Assembly (NCBI GenBank): GCA_902580945.1
Contig: CACHML010000007.1
Coordinates: forward strand, 1 to 64,000
Direction of reading: 5' to 3'
Origin: an uncultured Pelagibacteraceae bacterium
GTDB taxonomy: Bacteria; Pseudomonadota; Alphaproteobacteria; Pelagibacterales; Pelagibacteraceae
Length of the DNA stretch: 64,000 bases
The translations under genes were made by a program, and so were the position numbers. Positions within the stretch are counted from its first letter, which is position 1; each line of letters begins with the position of its first letter. The notes below the pieces were generated by a model. It saw nothing but the letters and a program-made list of their open reading frames with translations, made no database searches and was not told the origin of the DNA. Positions 4,367 through 11,853 of the stretch are shown here, piece by piece.

Positions 4367-6108
4367 TGGAAATTTATAAAGATCTATCATCACCAGCTAG
4401 TCAGCAATTTGAAAAACTGTTAAACGGCCAATTATCAAAAAATAAGATTGAAGAAGGAAAAATAATTGAGGGTAAAGTTACAAAAATAACTAGTAAATAT
4501 ATTTTTCTTTTCATACCTGGATTAAAAAGCGAGCCTGTAATTGATATTAACGAGATAAAAATGATTGGAATGGCTGATAATGTAAAGGAAGGAGATACAA
4601 TTTCAGTCCTACTTGAGAAAATTGAGGACAGAAATGGAGATGTTGTTGTTTCAGCTTTAAAAGCTCAGAAGATAAAGGGATGGAATAAATTAGTAAAATG
4701 TTATGAAAATAATGAGTTGATAAATGGAAAAATTACACAAAAAACTAAGGGTGGAGTTATTGTAGAACATCTAGAAACTGGTTCTCTAATGTTTTGTCCC
4801 GGATCTCAAATTTCTGACAAACCAGTAAAAAATATTGACCACTTAATTGGTGTTGAACAAAAGTTTGCTCTCATAAAATTAGATATGGTGAGAGGTAATA
4901 GTGTTGTGTCAAGAAGGCAGGTGGTATCCTCTAATAAAAAGGAGGATAAAGTTAAGATTATCCAGACACTTAAGGTGGGTGATGTAATTAAAGATGCTAT
5001 TGTAAAAGGCTATTCTTCATTTGGTTGCTTCTTCGAAGTTACTACATCAGAAGGTACGATTGATACACTATGTCATCTTCAAGAAATAAGTTATAGCAGA
5101 GTGAATCATCCCGATGAAATTTTTAATATTGGCGAAAAACATGATTTGAAGGTCATTTCAATAGACATGGAGAAATTGCAGGTTGGTTGTTCTATTAAGC
5201 AACTATCACCAGATCCCTTTGAGCATATATCAAATTATGAGATAGGAAAAGAATACTCAGTAAAAGTTGAAAAAATTACAGACTATGGATGCTTCTGCTC
5301 ACTTGAACCAGGCTTAAGCACTTTATTACATAGTTCAGAAATGAGTTGGACAAAAAAAAATGTTTCTCCAAAAAAAATGTTTAATGTTGGAGATAACATA
5401 AAATGTGTGATTACTGAAATTGATACCGAAAAAAGAAGAGTAGCTATATCTCATAAATTAACACAAGAAAACCCTTATTCAAAACTTGAGAGCAGTTATC
5501 CTGTTGGAAGCGAGATAGAGGGAGAGGTAAGTAATTTTAATGAGTATGCAATTTATTTAAAATTAGGTGATTTTGAAGTTGATGGTTTTTTGCACTCTAA
5601 CGATCTTTCATATACTGGCAAACCAGACGAGGAACTAAAAAAATACAAAAGAGGAGATAAAATTAAGGTAAAAATTCTTGAAATAAAAATAAATGAGCAA
5701 AAAGTAAGAGTAGGTCTGAAACAGCTACAAAAAGATCCCTTTGACTGGTTTAAAGATAAAAAAGTAAATGACCCAATTACGGTAAAAGTTATTTCATCCG
5801 ATAACAAAGGATTGTTTGTAAAACCAGAAGGATGTGAGGTTGAGGTATTAATAAAAAAATCACAAATTGCGATGAATACTAATGATGCAAGACCATCAAG
5901 ATTTGTAGGTGGAGAAAGGATAGACGCAGCAATAGCTGAATTAAATTTAGAGAAGAGGAAGGTCACTTTAAGTATTAAATTACTTGAAGAAATAATGAAT
6001 GCAAAAGCTATAAAAGAGCATTCAAGTCCTCTTAGTGGAAAAAATCTACCATTCTCATCTCTTTCAGAACAATTAGATGATAAACAAAAGAAAAAAGATA
6101 AAGAATAA
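4366..6108 (+). CDS. rpsA: 30S ribosomal protein S1
   Basis: mRNA-binding ribosomal protein. It contains successive S1 (OB-fold) repeats across 580 aa, recognisable by recurring G-x-V/I ... G-C-F-C/F-E-V ... L-H-x-S-E ... G-D-x-I-K ... V-x-I-S/G-x-K-Q patterns, for example FGCFFEV around 222, YGCFCSL around 308 and VRVGLKQLQKDPF around 445. The C-terminus is a Lys-rich tail. One-base overlap with cmk (TAATG), and 3 nt to ihfB. S1 matters in organisms like this one, where clear Shine-Dalgarno sequences are scarce; that link is inference. Confidence 0.95.
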   Translation: MEIYKDLSSPASQQFEKLLNGQLSKNKIEEGKIIEGKVTKITSKYIFLFIPGLKSEPVIDINEIKMIGMADNVKEGDTISVLLEKIEDRNGDVVVSALKAQKIKGWNKLVKCYENNELINGKITQKTKGGVIVEHLETGSLMFCPGSQISDKPVKNIDHLIGVEQKFALIKLDMVRGNSVVSRRQVVSSNKKEDKVKIIQTLKVGDVIKDAIVKGYSSFGCFFEVTTSEGTIDTLCHLQEISYSRVNHPDEIFNIGEKHDLKVISIDMEKLQVGCSIKQLSPDPFEHISNYEIGKEYSVKVEKITDYGCFCSLEPGLSTLLHSSEMSWTKKNVSPKKMFNVGDNIKCVITEIDTEKRRVAISHKLTQENPYSKLESSYPVGSEIEGEVSNFNEYAIYLKLGDFEVDGFLHSNDLSYTGKPDEELKKYKRGDKIKVKILEIKINEQKVRVGLKQLQKDPFDWFKDKKVNDPITVKVISSDNKGLFVKPEGCEVEVLIKKSQIAMNTNDARPSRFVGGERIDAAIAELNLEKRKVTLSIKLLEEIMNAKAIKEHSSPLSGKNLPFSSLSEQLDDKQKKKDKE

Positions 6109-6111
6109 AAA

Positions 6112-6402
6112 TTGTCAGTAGCAAAATCAGACTTAATAAAGGAATTTTCAAAAAACTATCCAAATTTTTTAAAAAAAGACCTTATCAAATTACTAGATAT
6201 AGTTATTTATGAGATACAACAGTCTTTAAAAAGAAATGAAAGAGTTGAATTAAGAGACTTATTCTCATTAGAGCCAAGAATTCAAAAAGCAAGGGTATCT
6301 CGAAACCCTAGAACAAGTGAGAAGCTAAATACCCCTGAAAAAAAAGCTATCCTTTTTAAAGTTTCTAAGGAATGGAATAAAAAAATTAATGAAAAAGAGT
6401 AA
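6112..6402 (+). CDS. ihfB: HU/IHF-family DNA-binding protein (IHF beta-like)
   Basis: Small nucleoid protein of 96 aa. The dimerisation helices (SVAKSDLIKEFSKNYP) and the beta-arm with RNPRTSEK (family RNPxTGE, whose proline intercalates into DNA) are visible, and it directly follows rpsA as ihfB does in many proteobacteria. The start is TTG, 3 nt after the rpsA stop. The usual GFGxF turn is RDLFSLEPR here, so the body of the protein is divergent. It overlaps pyrF by 14 nt. HU cannot be excluded from sequence alone; position favours IHF-beta. Confidence 0.8.
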   Translation: MSVAKSDLIKEFSKNYPNFLKKDLIKLLDIVIYEIQQSLKRNERVELRDLFSLEPRIQKARVSRNPRTSEKLNTPEKKAILFKVSKEWNKKINEKE

Positions 6403-7060
6403 AATATTCATAGCTTGTGACAGTACGAATATTAAAAAAATTAACGAAATTATCAAAAAAACTGAAAATTCAAAATTACAAGTTGGTTATAAGTTCGGAT
6501 TAGAATTTTTAAATTCTAAAAATGGTAGAAATTTTATCTATAAACTAAAAGATAAAATTACGTTTGGAGATTATAAATTTTCAGATATTCCAAATACCTG
6601 CGCCTCAGCTATAAGAGCTGTAAAGGACCTAAATTTTAATTATTTAACAATTCATATAAATTGTGGATTTGATGCTCTTAAAGCTGCCAAAGAGGTTTCA
6701 GGAAAAACAAAATTGATTGGTGTGACTGTTCTAACTTCTTTAGATAACAAGTCCTTAAAAAGGATCGGTTTTAACAATAATGTGAAGAATGCAGTACTGC
6801 AGCAAGCTAAGTTAGCTCATAAGGCAAAGCTAGATGCAATAGTGTGCAGTGCTCAAGAAGTAAAAATTGTAAAGAAAGTTTTTAAAAAAGAGATAATAAC
6901 ACCTGGTATAAGATTTAATTCTAAATCAAATGATCAAAAGAGGTTTATGACTCCAAAAGAGGCATTAAAAAATGGATCTGACTGGCTAGTGATTGGAAGA
7001 CCAATTACAAAAGGTAACATAAAAAATAATATTCAAAATTTAGTTAATCATTTGAAATAA
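6389..7060 (+). CDS. pyrF: Orotidine 5'-phosphate decarboxylase, with unusual active site
   Basis: Last step of UMP synthesis. The fold and signatures are clear: N-terminal IACDST, GDYKFSDIPNT (Asp61, Lys63 and Asp66 matching the catalytic D-x-K-x-x-D), GVTVLTS, CSAQE, TPGIR and IGRPIT. The other normally invariant lysine, in the family motif LKVG, is Gln31 (LQVGYKFG), and the HxxGG loop reads HINCG. Length 223 aa is normal. It overlaps ihfB by 14 nt and trpF by one base (TAATG), so it is translationally coupled. Orthology is well supported; the altered lysine raises a question about rate or chemistry. Confidence 0.87.
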   Translation: MKKSKIFIACDSTNIKKINEIIKKTENSKLQVGYKFGLEFLNSKNGRNFIYKLKDKITFGDYKFSDIPNTCASAIRAVKDLNFNYLTIHINCGFDALKAAKEVSGKTKLIGVTVLTSLDNKSLKRIGFNNNVKNAVLQQAKLAHKAKLDAIVCSAQEVKIVKKVFKKEIITPGIRFNSKSNDQKRFMTPKEALKNGSDWLVIGRPITKGNIKNNIQNLVNHLK

Positions 7061-7674
7061 TGGTTAAAGGAATTAAAATCTGTGGGATCTCAGATCTTGA
7101 GACTTTGAACTATATCATAAATCATAAATTTCCTCCTCAATTTATAGGTTTTATTACTAATTACAAAAAAAGTAAGAGATATGTTGATTATAATAGATTA
7201 AAAAAATTATTAAAAGTTGATAGAAAAAATTCAAATTTTGTATCAGTCCTTGTAAATCCACAATATGAAGAATTAGAAAAAATAAAATATTTAAATTTTG
7301 ATTTTTACCAACTGTATGATGTTAGTCCCGAAAAGACAAAACTTATTAAGAAAAAATATAATATAAAAATTATTACTGCCTTTACAATTAGTAGTCAAAG
7401 TGATGTAGAGAAATATAAAGATTATATAGGTATCGCTGATATGTTTCTTTTTGATGGAAAAGGTTACGAAAAATCAATAGGTTTCGATCATAAGTTATTA
7501 AATACAGTACCTAATAACTTAAACAAAATGATTGCTGGAAATATAAAAATAGATGATATTGCTAACTTTAAAAATAAAGATTTCTTTATAGACTTAAGTG
7601 GTGCATTAGAAGATAAAGAAGGCAAAAAAGATTTTGATAAAATTAATAAATTGCTAAATTTATTAAATCTATGA
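7060..7674 (+). CDS. trpF: Phosphoribosylanthranilate isomerase
   Basis: Tryptophan pathway TIM-barrel enzyme converting PRA to CdRP. The catalytic cysteine is in KICGIS near the N-terminus and the catalytic aspartate in FLFDGKG around residue 130; the C-terminal IDLSGALE corresponds to the family VDVSSGVE phosphate loop. QLYD replaces the family QLHG. 204 aa, normal. It overlaps pyrF (1 nt) and trpB (ATGA). No trpC, trpD, trpE or trpG is in this window. Confidence 0.88.
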   Translation: MVKGIKICGISDLETLNYIINHKFPPQFIGFITNYKKSKRYVDYNRLKKLLKVDRKNSNFVSVLVNPQYEELEKIKYLNFDFYQLYDVSPEKTKLIKKKYNIKIITAFTISSQSDVEKYKDYIGIADMFLFDGKGYEKSIGFDHKLLNTVPNNLNKMIAGNIKIDDIANFKNKDFFIDLSGALEDKEGKKDFDKINKLLNLLNL

Positions 7675-8915
7675 GATTAAAAAAAGGAATACCAGTAATA
7701 GATCAAGGAAACAAATTTGGTTTCTGGGGCGGAAAATTTGGTGGAAATTTTGTCCCTGAAACACTTAAAAGGCCTATTGAAGATTTAGAAATTCAATTTA
7801 ATAAATTAAAAAATGATAAAAAATTCATTTTCGAAAGAGATAAATATTTCAAAAATTGGATTGGTACACCCACAAGGTTTATAAAATTACATAACTTAAC
7901 AAAACACGTAAATGGTGCTCAGATCTGGTCAAAAGTTGTATCTGATGCAAATGGAGGTGCCCATAAGATATATAATGCTACAGTACATTGTTTACTAGCA
8001 AGAAGATCTGGAAAGAAAGTAATAATAGGTGATACTGGAGCTGGATATGCAGGTAAAATGTTGAGCATGGCAGCTAAGAAATTTGGATTAAAATGCAAAA
8101 TTTTTATGGGAGCAAAAGATATTGAACGTCAACAACCAAATGTTAGAGCAATGAAGAAAAACGGAGCAGATGTGATTCCCGTATACTCTGGAAGTCAAAC
8201 GCTTGTAGATGCCGTGTCTGAATGTATGAGATATTGGGTAGCAAATTGTGATACTACTGCAATGTGTGTAGGTAGCACGGTAGGACCAGCAATATTCGTA
8301 AGAATATGTGGTTGGAGTACGAGTCAAATTTCAAGAGAACTTAAAGTCCAACTCATTGAGAAGTTTGGTACTGTTCCAAAAAAACTCAAATTGTACAATT
8401 GCGTAGGCGGAGGTTCTTCAAGTTTTGGTTTTTGGAATGAATTTATGGATTACGATAAGAAACAAGTTGAATTTATCGGAGTTGAAGCTGGAGGGCCAGC
8501 TAAAAGCAAGAAACATGCTGCTCCTTTAACATATGGTTCTAAAATTGGCATACTTCATGGAGCAGCTCAATATGTTAATCAGAATAGCGATGGACAAATT
8601 GAAGAGACTGAGTCTATTTCCGCAGGTCTTGATTATCCTGGAATTTCTCCTTTACACTGTTTTTTAAAAGATACTAAGAGAGCAAGATACACCGCTGCTA
8701 GTGATGAAGAAGCTTTGAAAGCATATCAAATAGTCACAAAATACGAAAATTTAAGACCATCACTTGAACCAAGCCACGCCTTCTCGGTTGCATTAAAAGA
8801 GGCAAAAAAACTAAGCAAAGATACTATTGTAGTCATAAACAGTTGTGGAGATGCTTACAAAGATAAGAAAATTTTGGAAAAAAAATTAGGAAAAAAATAT
8901 GTTAAATCCAATTAG
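7671..8915 (+). CDS. trpB: Tryptophan synthase beta chain homologue with altered catalytic motifs
   Basis: PLP enzyme expected to condense indole and serine. The N-terminal FGFWGGKFGGNFVPETL, GGAHK with the PLP lysine (Lys99), MGAKDIERQ, VGGGSSSFG phosphate cup (245-251), SISAGLDYPG and EPSHA identify a TrpB1-type protein of normal length (414 aa). Several signatures differ. The catalytic glutamate (Salmonella E109, in ETGAGQHG) is Asp121 in DTGAGYAG. The KREDL strand before the lysine is gone (SKVVSDAN). GPHPYP is GPAIFVRI. The SGRGDKD loop that contacts PLP is NSCGDAYKD (390-398). It is coupled to trpF (ATGA) and overlaps trpA by 17 nt. Orthology by position is strong; function as a normal TrpB is less certain. 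Confidence 0.8.
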   Translation: MRLKKGIPVIDQGNKFGFWGGKFGGNFVPETLKRPIEDLEIQFNKLKNDKKFIFERDKYFKNWIGTPTRFIKLHNLTKHVNGAQIWSKVVSDANGGAHKIYNATVHCLLARRSGKKVIIGDTGAGYAGKMLSMAAKKFGLKCKIFMGAKDIERQQPNVRAMKKNGADVIPVYSGSQTLVDAVSECMRYWVANCDTTAMCVGSTVGPAIFVRICGWSTSQISRELKVQLIEKFGTVPKKLKLYNCVGGGSSSFGFWNEFMDYDKKQVEFIGVEAGGPAKSKKHAAPLTYGSKIGILHGAAQYVNQNSDGQIEETESISAGLDYPGISPLHCFLKDTKRARYTAASDEEALKAYQIVTKYENLRPSLEPSHAFSVALKEAKKLSKDTIVVINSCGDAYKDKKILEKKLGKKYVKSN

Positions 8916-9699
8916 TCAAGCTTTTAAAAAATCAAAAAAAGAGAACAGACCAGCTTTACTAACTTATACAGTCGCCGGTGATAGTTCAAAAAATCAATCT
9001 TTAGAAATACTAAAATCTGTATCAAAGCATGCTGATATATTGGAAGTTGGTGTTCCTCACAATACACCAGTTGCAGACGGTGGACAAATACAAACAAGTT
9101 CATATAGAGCAATCAAAAACGGTATTAAAATGAATGATATATTTAAAATCGTTAAAGATTTTAAAATTAGCAAATATTCTAAGCCAATTATACTTATGGG
9201 TTACTATAATATGATTTATCAGTTTGGCGAAAATAAATTTTTAAAAGAGTGCAAGAAATCTGGGGTGAATGGATTGATAGTCGTTGATTTACCTTGGCCA
9301 GAAAATAAAATATTTTCAAAAAAGTGTAAGAAAAGTTCAATTAACTTTATTCAATTATTATCGCCAACAACATCGTACAAAAGATTAAAGAGTATTACAA
9401 AAGACTCTCATGATATGATTTACTATATTAGTATGTTATCTACAACAGGAGGAAAGCTTAAAGTTTCACCAAAAAAAATTTTACAAAATTATAATAAAAT
9501 TAAAAATATCAGCCCAAAAAAAAATTGTGTAATTGGATTTGGGATAACCGAAAAAACTATATCAAAATTTAAAAGTGCTGATGGGCTAGTAGTTGGTAGT
9601 CAAATTTGCAAGGAAATTACTAGAAGTTTAAACAATAGACAAAATCCTGTCATAAATGTAAGTAAGATGGTTAATAAATTAAAAAAAAAAATATCATGA
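8899..9699 (+). CDS. trpA: Tryptophan synthase alpha chain
   Basis: TIM-barrel subunit that cleaves indole-3-glycerol phosphate. Glu49 (LEVGVP) and Asp60 (PVADGG) occur at the same numbers as the catalytic Glu49/Asp60 of the enteric enzyme; GFGI and GLVVGS near the C-terminus form the phosphate site. The loops that signal to the beta chain differ: FSDP is HNTP, and loop 6 (RSGVTG) reads LSTTGG. 266 aa, normal. It overlaps trpB by 17 nt and accD by 4 nt (ATGA). The alpha-chain catalytic pair is intact even though the partner trpB is atypical. Confidence 0.87.
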   Translation: MLNPISQAFKKSKKENRPALLTYTVAGDSSKNQSLEILKSVSKHADILEVGVPHNTPVADGGQIQTSSYRAIKNGIKMNDIFKIVKDFKISKYSKPIILMGYYNMIYQFGENKFLKECKKSGVNGLIVVDLPWPENKIFSKKCKKSSINFIQLLSPTTSYKRLKSITKDSHDMIYYISMLSTTGGKLKVSPKKILQNYNKIKNISPKKNCVIGFGITEKTISKFKSADGLVVGSQICKEITRSLNNRQNPVINVSKMVNKLKKKIS

Positions 9700-10631
9700 A
9701 TTGGCTCACAAAAGCGATAAATTTTGGAGAAAAAATAAAGAAGGTACTTAGAAAGAGACCTTCTAAGGTGGATATAGCTAATTCAAAGTGGATAGCTTGC
9801 TGTGGGAATTCACCCCAATTAAAATCAACAATATTTAATAAAGAACAGCTAAACACTTGCCCTAATTGCAATAAACATTATCCATTTACACCTAGAGAAA
9901 GGTTTGATCATTTTTTTGGAAAAAATAATTACGAGATAGTTAAAACTCCAGAACTTGCCGAGAATCCATTAAATTTTCCTGGTTATAAAGAAAAGCTCGA
10001 ACGAGGAAGAAATATAACAGGACATCATTGTGCTGTAATGGTTGCTCAAGGTGTGAGGAATGGAATTAAAGTTACTTCCTTCGCAATTGATAGTCGTTTT
10101 AATGGTGGTTCTATAAATGCTTCTGCTGGAGAAGCAATAGTGTATTGTTTTCAGAAAGCCATAGATGATCTTACGCCTGTTGTAGCTTGGAGCGAGGGCG
10201 GAGGCCAGGCTATGCAAGAGTCAAATATAGCATTACATTATATGGTAAAAACTGTTTTAGCAGCAAATACATTTAAAGATTCTACAAAATTACCGTTTAT
10301 AAATATTTATACAAATAAATGCTATGGAGGTATAACTGCAAGTTTTGCTGCTCCATCTATAGCAGATATTTGTTTTGCAGAACCATCTATGGTTGGTTTT
10401 GCGGGTCAACATATAGTAAAAAATCAGACACGTGAGGATTTGCCTGAAGGTTTTCAATCAAGCGCGGTTTTGGTTGAAAAAGGTATGTGTGATGGAGTAT
10501 TTAACAGAAAAGAAATAAATGAAAAAATAATTGGAATATTAAAAATATTGCTCAAGAAAAATTCTGAAATAAATTCAGAAAGTTTAAATGAAACTTCAGA
10601 AACTAATATCCAAACTAGAGAAGCATCATAA
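9696..10631 (+). CDS. accD: Acetyl-CoA carboxylase carboxyltransferase beta subunit, divergent
   Basis: Crotonase-fold subunit that, with AccA, transfers CO2 from biotin to acetyl-CoA to start fatty acid synthesis. Recognised by DPLxF-like NPLNFPGYKEKL, the FNGGSINASAGE segment, GGITASFA, IAEPxxxxGFAG-like FAEPSMVGFAG, and LPEGFQSSAVLVEKG. Position between trpA and folC is the standard accD locus. Oddities: the zinc ribbon reads CC-x18-CPNC (Cys35, 36, 55, 58) rather than CxxC-x15-CxxC, and the conserved SASGGARMQE is SEGGGQAMQE. 311 aa, normal. folC starts 44 nt before its stop. accA is not in the window. Confidence 0.85.
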   Translation: MNWLTKAINFGEKIKKVLRKRPSKVDIANSKWIACCGNSPQLKSTIFNKEQLNTCPNCNKHYPFTPRERFDHFFGKNNYEIVKTPELAENPLNFPGYKEKLERGRNITGHHCAVMVAQGVRNGIKVTSFAIDSRFNGGSINASAGEAIVYCFQKAIDDLTPVVAWSEGGGQAMQESNIALHYMVKTVLAANTFKDSTKLPFINIYTNKCYGGITASFAAPSIADICFAEPSMVGFAGQHIVKNQTREDLPEGFQSSAVLVEKGMCDGVFNRKEINEKIIGILKILLKKNSEINSESLNETSETNIQTREAS

Positions 10632-11853
10632 AAAAAAACTAGATTTATCTTTAGGAAGAACTTTTAACCTTTTAAAAAAGCTTGGTAATCCACAAGATAA
10701 ATTAAATAACATTATCACGGTTGTTGGAACTAATGCTAAAGCAAGCATGTGCTTTGGCATTAAGTCAATTCTAAACCAAGGTGGATATCAAACTAATCTT
10801 TACACCTCGCCCCACCTACTCTCTTATACAGAAAGATATATTTTTAATGATAAGGAAATCAATGAAGAAGATTTAATAGAATTACTGACTGATGTTGAAA
10901 AAACTTTAGGTGATGACAATGCAACATTATTTGAAATTTTAACTTGTGCATTTTTAAAACATGCTGAAAATTTCAAAGATAATATTAATATTATAGAAGC
11001 AGGATTATTTCATCAATTTGATAGTACAAATGTATTTAAGGAAAATTTAATGACACTCATTGGCGTCATTCACAATGACCATTTCCAGTGGCTTGAAAAT
11101 AAATCAATTGAAGGTGTAATATATGAAAAAACAACTAAGCTTTTAAACTCAAATATATTTATTAATAAACAAGTAAATAATGAAATAGTAAATAAAATAG
11201 AAAAATCATTGGAAAAAAATACATCCAATAAATATTTTTTTGGTAAAGATTTTAGTATTTCAAAGTCCAAAAATGGTTTGATTAAGTATCAAGATCAGTT
11301 AGGAGGATTAGTATTGCCTGAGCCAAGTATTCTTGGAGATCATCAGCTTTATAATATAAGTACCTCAATAGCTGCATCACGAAAAATATTTAATATAAAA
11401 GATAATGATATAATTAATGGTATTCAAAATATTTCACTCAAAGGAAGATTGGAAGAAATCAAAAATGGAAAGTTAAAAACGATTGCAGGCAACAATAGAT
11501 TAATTATTGACGGTGGTCATAATATAAGTGCAAGTTTTTCAATCGCAAATTGGATAAAAAACCAAACTCAAGAGGTAAATCTAATAGTTGGAATGATGAA
11601 AGATAAAGAACATATTGAATTTATTAAATCTTTTAGAAATATTGTTAATTCTATAACTCTGATTGATATTCCTAATCAAGAAGGTGCAATATCAAAAGAA
11701 GATTTGGAAAGTAAGATTAATGAACTAAATTTAAATATAAAAAAATCACAAAGCATTGAAAGTGCTATTAAATCATTGTCTAAAAAAGAAAATACAATAA
11801 CTGTTTGTGTAGGTTCGCTTTATCTTGCGGGAGAAATTCTAAAATTAAATTAG
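10588..11853 (+). CDS. folC: Folylpolyglutamate/dihydrofolate synthase, divergent
   Basis: Adds glutamate to folates (and to dihydropteroate). Mur-ligase-like ATP-grasping fold: P-loop GTNAKASM (47-54; family GTNGKGST, lysine retained), YTSPHL, TLFEILTCAF, AGLFHQFDSTN (family VGLGGRxDATN), NDHFQWL (family LDHxxxLG), DGGHN and VGMMKDKE. 421 aa is normal. The chosen ATG overlaps accD by 44 nt; a later start would cut into the conserved first helix, so the overlap is probably real. The 3' end overlaps the convergent trxA stop (TTAG, 11850-11853). Confidence 0.88.
   Translation: MKLQKLISKLEKHHKKKLDLSLGRTFNLLKKLGNPQDKLNNIITVVGTNAKASMCFGIKSILNQGGYQTNLYTSPHLLSYTERYIFNDKEINEEDLIELLTDVEKTLGDDNATLFEILTCAFLKHAENFKDNINIIEAGLFHQFDSTNVFKENLMTLIGVIHNDHFQWLENKSIEGVIYEKTTKLLNSNIFINKQVNNEIVNKIEKSLEKNTSNKYFFGKDFSISKSKNGLIKYQDQLGGLVLPEPSILGDHQLYNISTSIAASRKIFNIKDNDIINGIQNISLKGRLEEIKNGKLKTIAGNNRLIIDGGHNISASFSIANWIKNQTQEVNLIVGMMKDKEHIEFIKSFRNIVNSITLIDIPNQEGAISKEDLESKINELNLNIKKSQSIESAIKSLSKKENTITVCVGSLYLAGEILKLN

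Follow-up and report, generated by a model that had tools for sequence, protein, structure and literature searches.

Does a TrpB homologue in which several catalytic signatures have been replaced still make tryptophan for its cell? The question is raised by a gene at positions 7671–8915 of the forward strand of a 64,000-nucleotide stretch of DNA (hereafter the window; GenBank assembly GCA_902580945.1, contig CACHML010000007.1, positions 1 to 64,000) from an uncultured Pelagibacteraceae bacterium, whose genome comprises 1.23 Mb in 31 contigs with a completeness of 91.9%. The original prediction, made from the sequence alone, had described an intact TrpB homologue with altered motifs and had left two readings, namely a remodelled TrpB of this lineage or a protein with a different beta-replacement or elimination activity. 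The altered motifs are confirmed in a single open reading frame of 414 amino acids, and we estimate at about 0.9 the probability that this trpB encodes the tryptophan synthase beta subunit of the cell, co-remodelled with its own TrpA.

We compared 129 distinct sequences of the TrpB type carried by the window (143 loci; hereafter the main type) with 30 canonical alphaproteobacterial TrpBs, using Salmonella residue numbers transferred by alignment; the numbers of the named residues are consistent with the cited literature. Since the relatives at 89–96% identity are the nearest 80 of 577 loci, the main-type set leans toward the neighbours of the source genome, and some genomes (including G012, G039, G043, and G050) entered the tables twice. 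His86, Lys87, Thr110–Gly113, Arg141, Asn145, Gly232–Ser235, Asp305, and Glu350 are retained in all 129 main-type sequences, which indicates that the catalytic set is mostly present, and 89 of the 177 columns that are at least 95% fixed in the canonical TrpBs hold the same fixed residue in both sets. Lys99 and Asp121 of the window protein, spaced by 22 residues as had been stated, align with Lys87 and Glu109. Asp occupies position 109 in every main-type TrpB (129/129) and Glu in every canonical one (30/30); conservation of this Asp among relatives had been proposed as a test, and the outcome is positive, although conservation alone cannot separate the two readings. Many of the replaced residues are themselves fixed across the main type, in which the HPYP position reads xIFV or a near variant and Asn236 is Ser. 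Gln114 is replaced by Tyr and Arg148 by Ala or Ser (once by Glu); in G043, a deep member, position 114 is Met and Arg148 is still present. In the closed state of the enzyme, Gln114 and Arg148 bond with Asn145 (PMC9512447).

The motifs DTGAGYAG, GPAIFVRI, and NSCGDAYKD all occur in the window TrpB as described. The KRED strand, which had been called absent, is instead substituted: KVVSDANGGAHK aligns without gaps with KREDLNHTGAHK, and the predicted structure places a strand at residues 84–88. At NSCGDAYKD the replacement of RGD by DAY is a real change, whereas the Cys is ordinary, being found at the position of Ser377 in 22 of the 30 canonical sequences, so that only RGD to DAY counts as a change. 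The gene is under purifying selection, with an omega (ratio of non-synonymous to synonymous change) of 0.041 for the nearest relative, at a distance free of synonymous saturation, 0.019–0.041 to the six nearest, and 0.107–0.159 to four more distant relatives; the values for trpA are 0.055–0.232. Together with the intact frame and the fixed Asp121, this upholds the statement that trpB is not a pseudogene.

Against the TrpB1 family TIGR00263 the window TrpB scores 384 bits (cut-off 392) and against the TrpB2-like family TIGR01415 only 95 bits (cut-off 518.85). The 45 TIGR00263 matches in another 44 genomes of the class range from 598 to 658 bits, with two further second copies at 518 and 415 (the latter partial), and the deviation of the window TrpB is therefore not chance; the cut-off is passed in 67 of 296 genomes of the order, including G348 at 403.5 bits. 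In sequence, its nearest homologues of known structure are tryptophan synthase beta chains. An AlphaFold model built with three divergent alignment rows (mean predicted confidence, pLDDT, 72; weak at residues 1–27, 276–303, and 310–326) superposes on TrpB chains with Z 41.7 and a root-mean-square deviation of 2.9 over 362 aligned residues, and the 50 matches listed for each fold search were all TrpBs. The Schiff-base lysine for pyridoxal phosphate (PLP) and the phosphate-loop GGGS are present in 129/129 main-type TrpBs, as are Arg141 and Asp305, each member of this pair being kept throughout. Position 109 keeps a carboxylate, but as Asp, so the defining residue is missing if Glu itself is taken to define the family. 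The contact of Lys167 with alphaAsp56 is also missing (Val, and Thr, Ala, or Cys, respectively); this contact is regulatory and not family-defining. The window protein is most probably a highly divergent offshoot of the usual TrpB1 family and not a TrpB2.

The gene overlaps trpF upstream and trpA downstream, which confirms the trp-gene neighbours originally named, and the partner subunit has changed with it. Contacts between TrpA loops and the beta subunit have been described, including alphaAsp56 with a lysine of the COMM domain and a betaSer178–alphaGly181 bond; the former is not present in every TrpAB structure and was unobserved in that of Francisella (PMC6608616). In 127 distinct main-type TrpAs, from which fragments of 230 amino acids or fewer were excluded, loop L2 has lost canonical Phe54, Asp56, Met58, and Pro62 and loop L6 has lost Gly181, among others. 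Catalytic Glu49 is present in all tabulated loci, and Asp60 in nearly all; the exceptions carry Glu and comprise the HIMB5-like type introduced below, G043, and a single canonical sequence. The window TrpA keeps both.

An acidic residue at alpha56 occurs if and only if beta167 is Lys in 180 of the 180 loci with both positions readable. These are 143 main-type loci with alpha Thr, Ala, or Cys and beta Val, 30 canonical loci with Asp and Lys (two of them from the SAR11-order genome G039), four HIMB5-like loci from three genomes and two loci of the single genome G050 with Glu and Lys, and one G017-like locus with Thr and Leu; L002 (not a TrpB), L125 and L148 (TrpA not found), and L119 (partial) were left out. 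The 18 loci studied within the genus agree without exception (seven main-type Thr/Val, seven HIMB5-like Glu/Lys, four G017-like Thr/Leu). The acid and the Lys are thus present or missing together, and the SAR11 main type has lost both ends of the alphaAsp56–betaLys167 contact.

Within the genus, the same operon slot holds three trpB–trpA pairs (main, HIMB5-like, and G017-like), whose TrpBs are 27–40% identical. In 18 genus genomes, 11 of whose loci were picked for a rare type, the trpB and trpA clusters are identical in membership (7, 7, and 4; 18/18), and pyrF, accD, and folC partition otherwise. Single-linkage thresholds were set by eye (48% for trpF, 55% for trpA, 60% for the others), and with average linkage trpB and trpA again agreed when three or four clusters were formed, the adjusted Rand indices being 1.00 and 1.00, compared with 0.16 and 0.25 for trpF/trpB and -0.01 and 0.06 for trpA/accD; accD and folC move together in part (0.34 and 0.64). 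At two clusters the trpB/trpA index is -0.00, the genes joining different clusters first, and that of trpF/trpB is 0.50. Between G300 and G348, identity is 83% for rpsA, 77% for pyrF, 57% for trpF, 37% for trpB, 29% for trpA, 79% for accD, and 67% for folC. Linkage contributes to the agreement of trpB and trpA, yet the equally adjacent trpF and accD do not follow. Quick TrpB and TrpA trees, which carried long-branch warnings and were used for types only and not for deep order, each recover the three types as single groups. That different pairs fill one slot implies an unchanged task, and the joint movement of trpB and trpA fits subunits that match only their own partner.

The two other pairs are unusual in their own right. 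The HIMB5-like TrpB (L112 at 4819–6009; L113, L257–L261), 51% identical to its best match among 398 genomes of the phylum, lacks Asp305 (Gln in four and Thr in three of seven genomes) and retains Glu109, Gln114, Arg141, and Lys167, so that here the alteration falls elsewhere in the allosteric network. The G017-like pair (L114 at 4857–6107; L262–L264) has a TrpB that is 33–40% identical to other alphaproteobacterial TrpBs, has Met114, Lys141, and Leu167 in 4/4 sequences, and has no close relative among 142 genomes of the class. Over the region at 6389–11853 of the window and its counterparts in 17 other genus genomes, pyrF, accD, and folC form three, six, and four deeply diverged allele clusters, respectively, with differing memberships, and this run of housekeeping genes therefore looks like a recombination hot spot.

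The main type is the TrpB of most Pelagibacterales (SAR11). A TrpB-family match was found in 277 of 296 genomes of the order that are at least 85% complete, a few of the matches being fragments or perhaps TrpB2 only; seven of the 296 carry the HIMB5-like and three the G017-like type, and G050 and G039 carry further types, the remaining genomes having been read in part. The named relatives at 89–96% identity (best 80 of 577) are recorded as Pelagibacteraceae or Pelagibacterales, and a match at 1e-105 was found in five of 385 genomes drawn across the class, all five Pelagibacterales. This pattern across order and class indicates a lineage trait and not an oddity of one genome. No second TrpB was found in the source genome, in which the only other match (28% identical) is a diaminopropionate ammonia-lyase, likewise a PLP enzyme. 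The complete genomes G348 (1,308,759 bases) and G141 (1,456,888 bases) carry the main type, each with a single TrpB-family match at 1e-20. A separate TrpB2-like gene (open frames of 454–493 amino acids) occurs in 18 of 28 SAR11 genomes searched, many of which were picked for having two matches; L297 is among these loci, and one gene of the 18 genomes was confirmed at 540 bits against TIGR01415.

The rest of the pathway is also present. In the source genome trpE (truncated by a contig end), trpG, trpD, and trpC lie on another contig, and matches to the trpE family (10 above the cut-off) and to trpC were obtained in 12/12 genomes checked. In the complete genome G136, a match to indole-glycerol-phosphate synthase (C1:930231–930997) is split across two overlapping open frames. 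AMS1 is reportedly a defined medium. SAR11 cells (strain HTCC7211 in the relevant figure) have been transferred from AMS1 with pyruvate, glycine, and methionine, and tryptophan is not among the additions listed (PMC6775983). The order-wide distribution, the sole TrpB of two complete genomes, the full trp pathway, purifying selection, and the changed TrpA contact loop all favour the first of the two original readings, a TrpB remodelled in this lineage.

Catalysis and channelling in the co-remodelled synthase may proceed as follows. TrpA, with Glu49 and Asp60 kept, would free indole from indole-3-glycerol phosphate, and TrpB with PLP on Lys99 would convert serine to aminoacrylate and then join it to indole. 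Asp121 would stand in for Glu109, whose role is the activation of indole N1 (PMC9512447). The pair Arg153–Asp321 (Arg141–Asp305), a stabiliser of the closed beta state, is retained, but the alphaAsp56–betaLys167 contact is replaced at both ends (Thr, Ala, or Cys; Val) and the closed-state network residues Gln114 and Arg148 by Tyr and by Ala or Ser. The SAR11 subunits would therefore work together but match canonical partners badly, and this would account for the lack of any mixing between trpB and trpA types in the loci compared.

Several observations weigh against this interpretation. The canonical residue is lost in all 129 main-type sequences at 47 of the 177 canonical-fixed columns, and Glu109 is invariant in the 30 canonical TrpBs and is also kept by the HIMB5-like and G017-like types. 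Activity and substrate specificity of the Salmonella enzyme are said to be altered by the betaE109D change. The alpha56/beta167 co-change rests on about two independent losses on the tree and is therefore suggestive, not proof. The COMM domain holds no excess of replaced beta columns (14/51 versus 33/126, p = 0.85), so the remodelling extends beyond the alpha contact; enrichment at 88–135 (p = 0.029) and 202–221 (p = 0.001) carries little weight because these ranges were chosen after the table had been viewed. Seven of 152 order genomes that are at least 90% complete lack a TrpB match, and G264, G302, and G304 (95–96% complete) still show no TrpB-family match at 1e-10, being either assembly gaps or true tryptophan auxotrophs. 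Finally, the rank correlation of pairwise identities between trpB and trpA (0.45) is no closer than that between trpF and trpB (0.48), which means that types are locked but not finer distances, and only cluster membership marks the pair out.

These similar correlations also speak for ordinary accelerated drift of trpB in a streamlined, AT-rich genome, with the TrpA change reflecting linkage only, an alternative that is compatible with synthase function and denies only co-adaptation. Neighbouring genes likewise score low (accD reaches 174.5 of the 317 bits required, and trpF stays below its NCBIfam cut-offs), and pyrF, accD, and folC also have divergent alleles. Drift nevertheless seems unlikely, since many replaced residues are fixed over the main type and since the groupings of trpB and trpA coincide entirely when three or four clusters are formed, where those of the equally adjacent trpF/trpB and trpA/accD do not.

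It is still less probable, though again compatible with a co-remodelled synthase, that the enzyme is bifunctional or relaxed and uses a further nucleophile or amino-acid substrate, perhaps in connection with scarce serine. SAR11 bacteria are without canonical serine and glycine synthesis (PMC6775983), and the changes lie partly in the serine-carboxylate loop; however, the other two pairs of the genus have different loops (GAGQH, and GASMN or GASMH) under what is presumably the same serine supply.

The second original reading, in which the protein has left tryptophan synthesis for another PLP-dependent beta-replacement or beta-elimination and tryptophan comes from outside, found no positive support and is very improbable. 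It could draw on Asp at Glu109, on Tyr-Ala replacing Gln-His in the loop that binds the substrate carboxylate, and on Ser for Asn236, and, going by the title of the report, E109D altered the substrate specificity of the Salmonella enzyme (Brzovic et al., 1992). Yet two complete genomes that keep the other trp genes have this type as their only TrpB, the gene adjoins a co-changed trpA with both catalytic residues, two other TrpB/TrpA pairs fill the same slot in close relatives, and growth is recorded in a medium with no tryptophan listed (PMC6775983). Signs of a new function were sought as a second TrpB in the source genome, a missing trp gene, or damaged TrpA catalytic residues, and none was seen. 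A decaying gene or an assembly artefact, suggested by the score below the family cut-off and by an in-frame stop within the matched stretch in a few relatives, is refuted by conservation, namely the intact frame, the relatives at 89–96% identity in named contigs, the low omega to the closest of them, and the fixed Asp121.

Beyond the assignment as the cell's synthase, we tentatively suggest that the SAR11 enzyme, which would function without the textbook alpha–beta contact and Glu109, may use another coupling and acid–base arrangement and perhaps differ in its specificity for serine or the nucleophile, and that it and the two other remodelled pairs may be mutually incompatible cassettes circulating through one operon slot in the most abundant bacteria of the ocean.

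Table 1. Coordinates in the window of trpB, its discussed codons, and the flanking genes.
Feature	Position	Strand	Evidence
trpB, main SAR11 type, 414 aa	7671..8915	+	TIGR00263 384 bits, NF010376 390 bits, both below their own cut-offs
Lys99 codon (Schiff-base Lys87 equivalent)	7965..7967	+	K in 129/129 distinct main-type and 30/30 canonical
Asp121 codon (Glu109 equivalent)	8031..8033	+	D in 129/129 distinct main-type; E in 30/30 canonical
Tyr126-Ala127 codons (Gln114-His115 equivalents, carboxylate-binding loop)	8046..8051	+	Y 128, M 1, A 129 (n = 129); canonical Q, H 30/30
Arg153 codon (Arg141 equivalent, retained)	8127..8129	+	R 129/129
Val179 codon (Lys167 equivalent, contact to alphaAsp56)	8205..8207	+	V 129/129; canonical K 30/30
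Asp321 codon (Asp305 equivalent, retained)	8631..8633	+	D 129/129
Cys392 codon (Ser377 equivalent)	8844..8846	+	C in 129/129 main-type and 22/30 canonical; S in 8/30
trpA, partner subunit, 17-base overlap with trpB	8899..9699	+	TIGR00262 205 bits (cut-off 102); alphaGlu49, alphaAsp60 retained
alphaThr56 codon (alphaAsp56 equivalent, loop L2)	9064..9066	+	canonical D 28/28; T 112, A 14, C 1 of 127 distinct main-type TrpAs
trpF, upstream, 4-base overlap with trpB	7060..7674	+	PF00697 74.5 bits
pyrF, upstream neighbour	6389..7060	+	TIGR01740 127.5 bits; gene order same in relatives
accD, downstream neighbour	9696..10631	+	TIGR00515 174.5 bits, below cut-off 317; gene order same in relatives

Among the neighbouring products, the AccD of the window has adjacent Cys-Cys where a zinc-ribbon CxxC is expected, as do 15 of 18 genus AccDs, that of the window included. 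A viral origin of trpB was considered and rejected: no SAR11-type TrpB was found in phage records (the best of 20 matching records is 42% identical), and 58 stretches from viral contigs yielded none confirmed as a relative of the A1 profile; three canonical-like TrpBs in viral contigs served only as alignment rows.

Allosteric coupling and channelling are classically illustrated by tryptophan synthase, and most work on them has relied on enteric enzymes carrying point mutations. In the natural enzymes of SAR11 the supposedly important Glu109, Lys167, Gln114, and alphaAsp56 have been replaced and the replacements then fixed, and with two further re-wired pairs in close relatives, subunit swapping could probe how alpha–beta communication can be rebuilt. 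The natural Asp109 state could also serve amino-acid biocatalysis. A deviant SAR11 TrpB cluster has been known since 2008, when SAR11-like trpB was placed as a distinct, early-splitting cluster within trpB_1, closer to trpB_1 than to trpB_2, and the single trpB of Pelagibacter ubique was judged necessarily functional (Kagan et al., 2008, PMC2395257). No published account of the altered residues, of the corresponding change in TrpA, or of trpBA pairs being exchanged came up in a search that left most subscription journals outside.

Compared with known systems, the window TrpB is related to the TrpB2 or TrpB-like proteins (TIGR01415, COG1350) by score, but far below their cut-off. It resembles the SAR11-like trpB_1 cluster of Kagan et al. 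(PMC2395257), for which the sections of that study considered here describe no residues, TrpA change, or trpBA pair exchange. With Salmonella betaE109D (Brzovic et al., 1992) it shares the same Glu-to-Asp change, which there is a single change in an otherwise canonical enzyme. The closest comparison is with TrpB1 (TIGR00263; Salmonella, E. coli, and Pyrococcus furiosus), with which it aligns over the full length at 32–46% identity and shares the PLP lysine, GGGS phosphate binding, Thr110–Gly113, Arg141, Asp305, Glu350, and an operon with trpA, whereas the SAR11 type differs by Glu109 to Asp, Gln114-His115 to Tyr-Ala, Lys167 to Val, Asn236 to Ser, HPYP to xIFV (or xVFV), and, in the source genome, KRED to KVVS.

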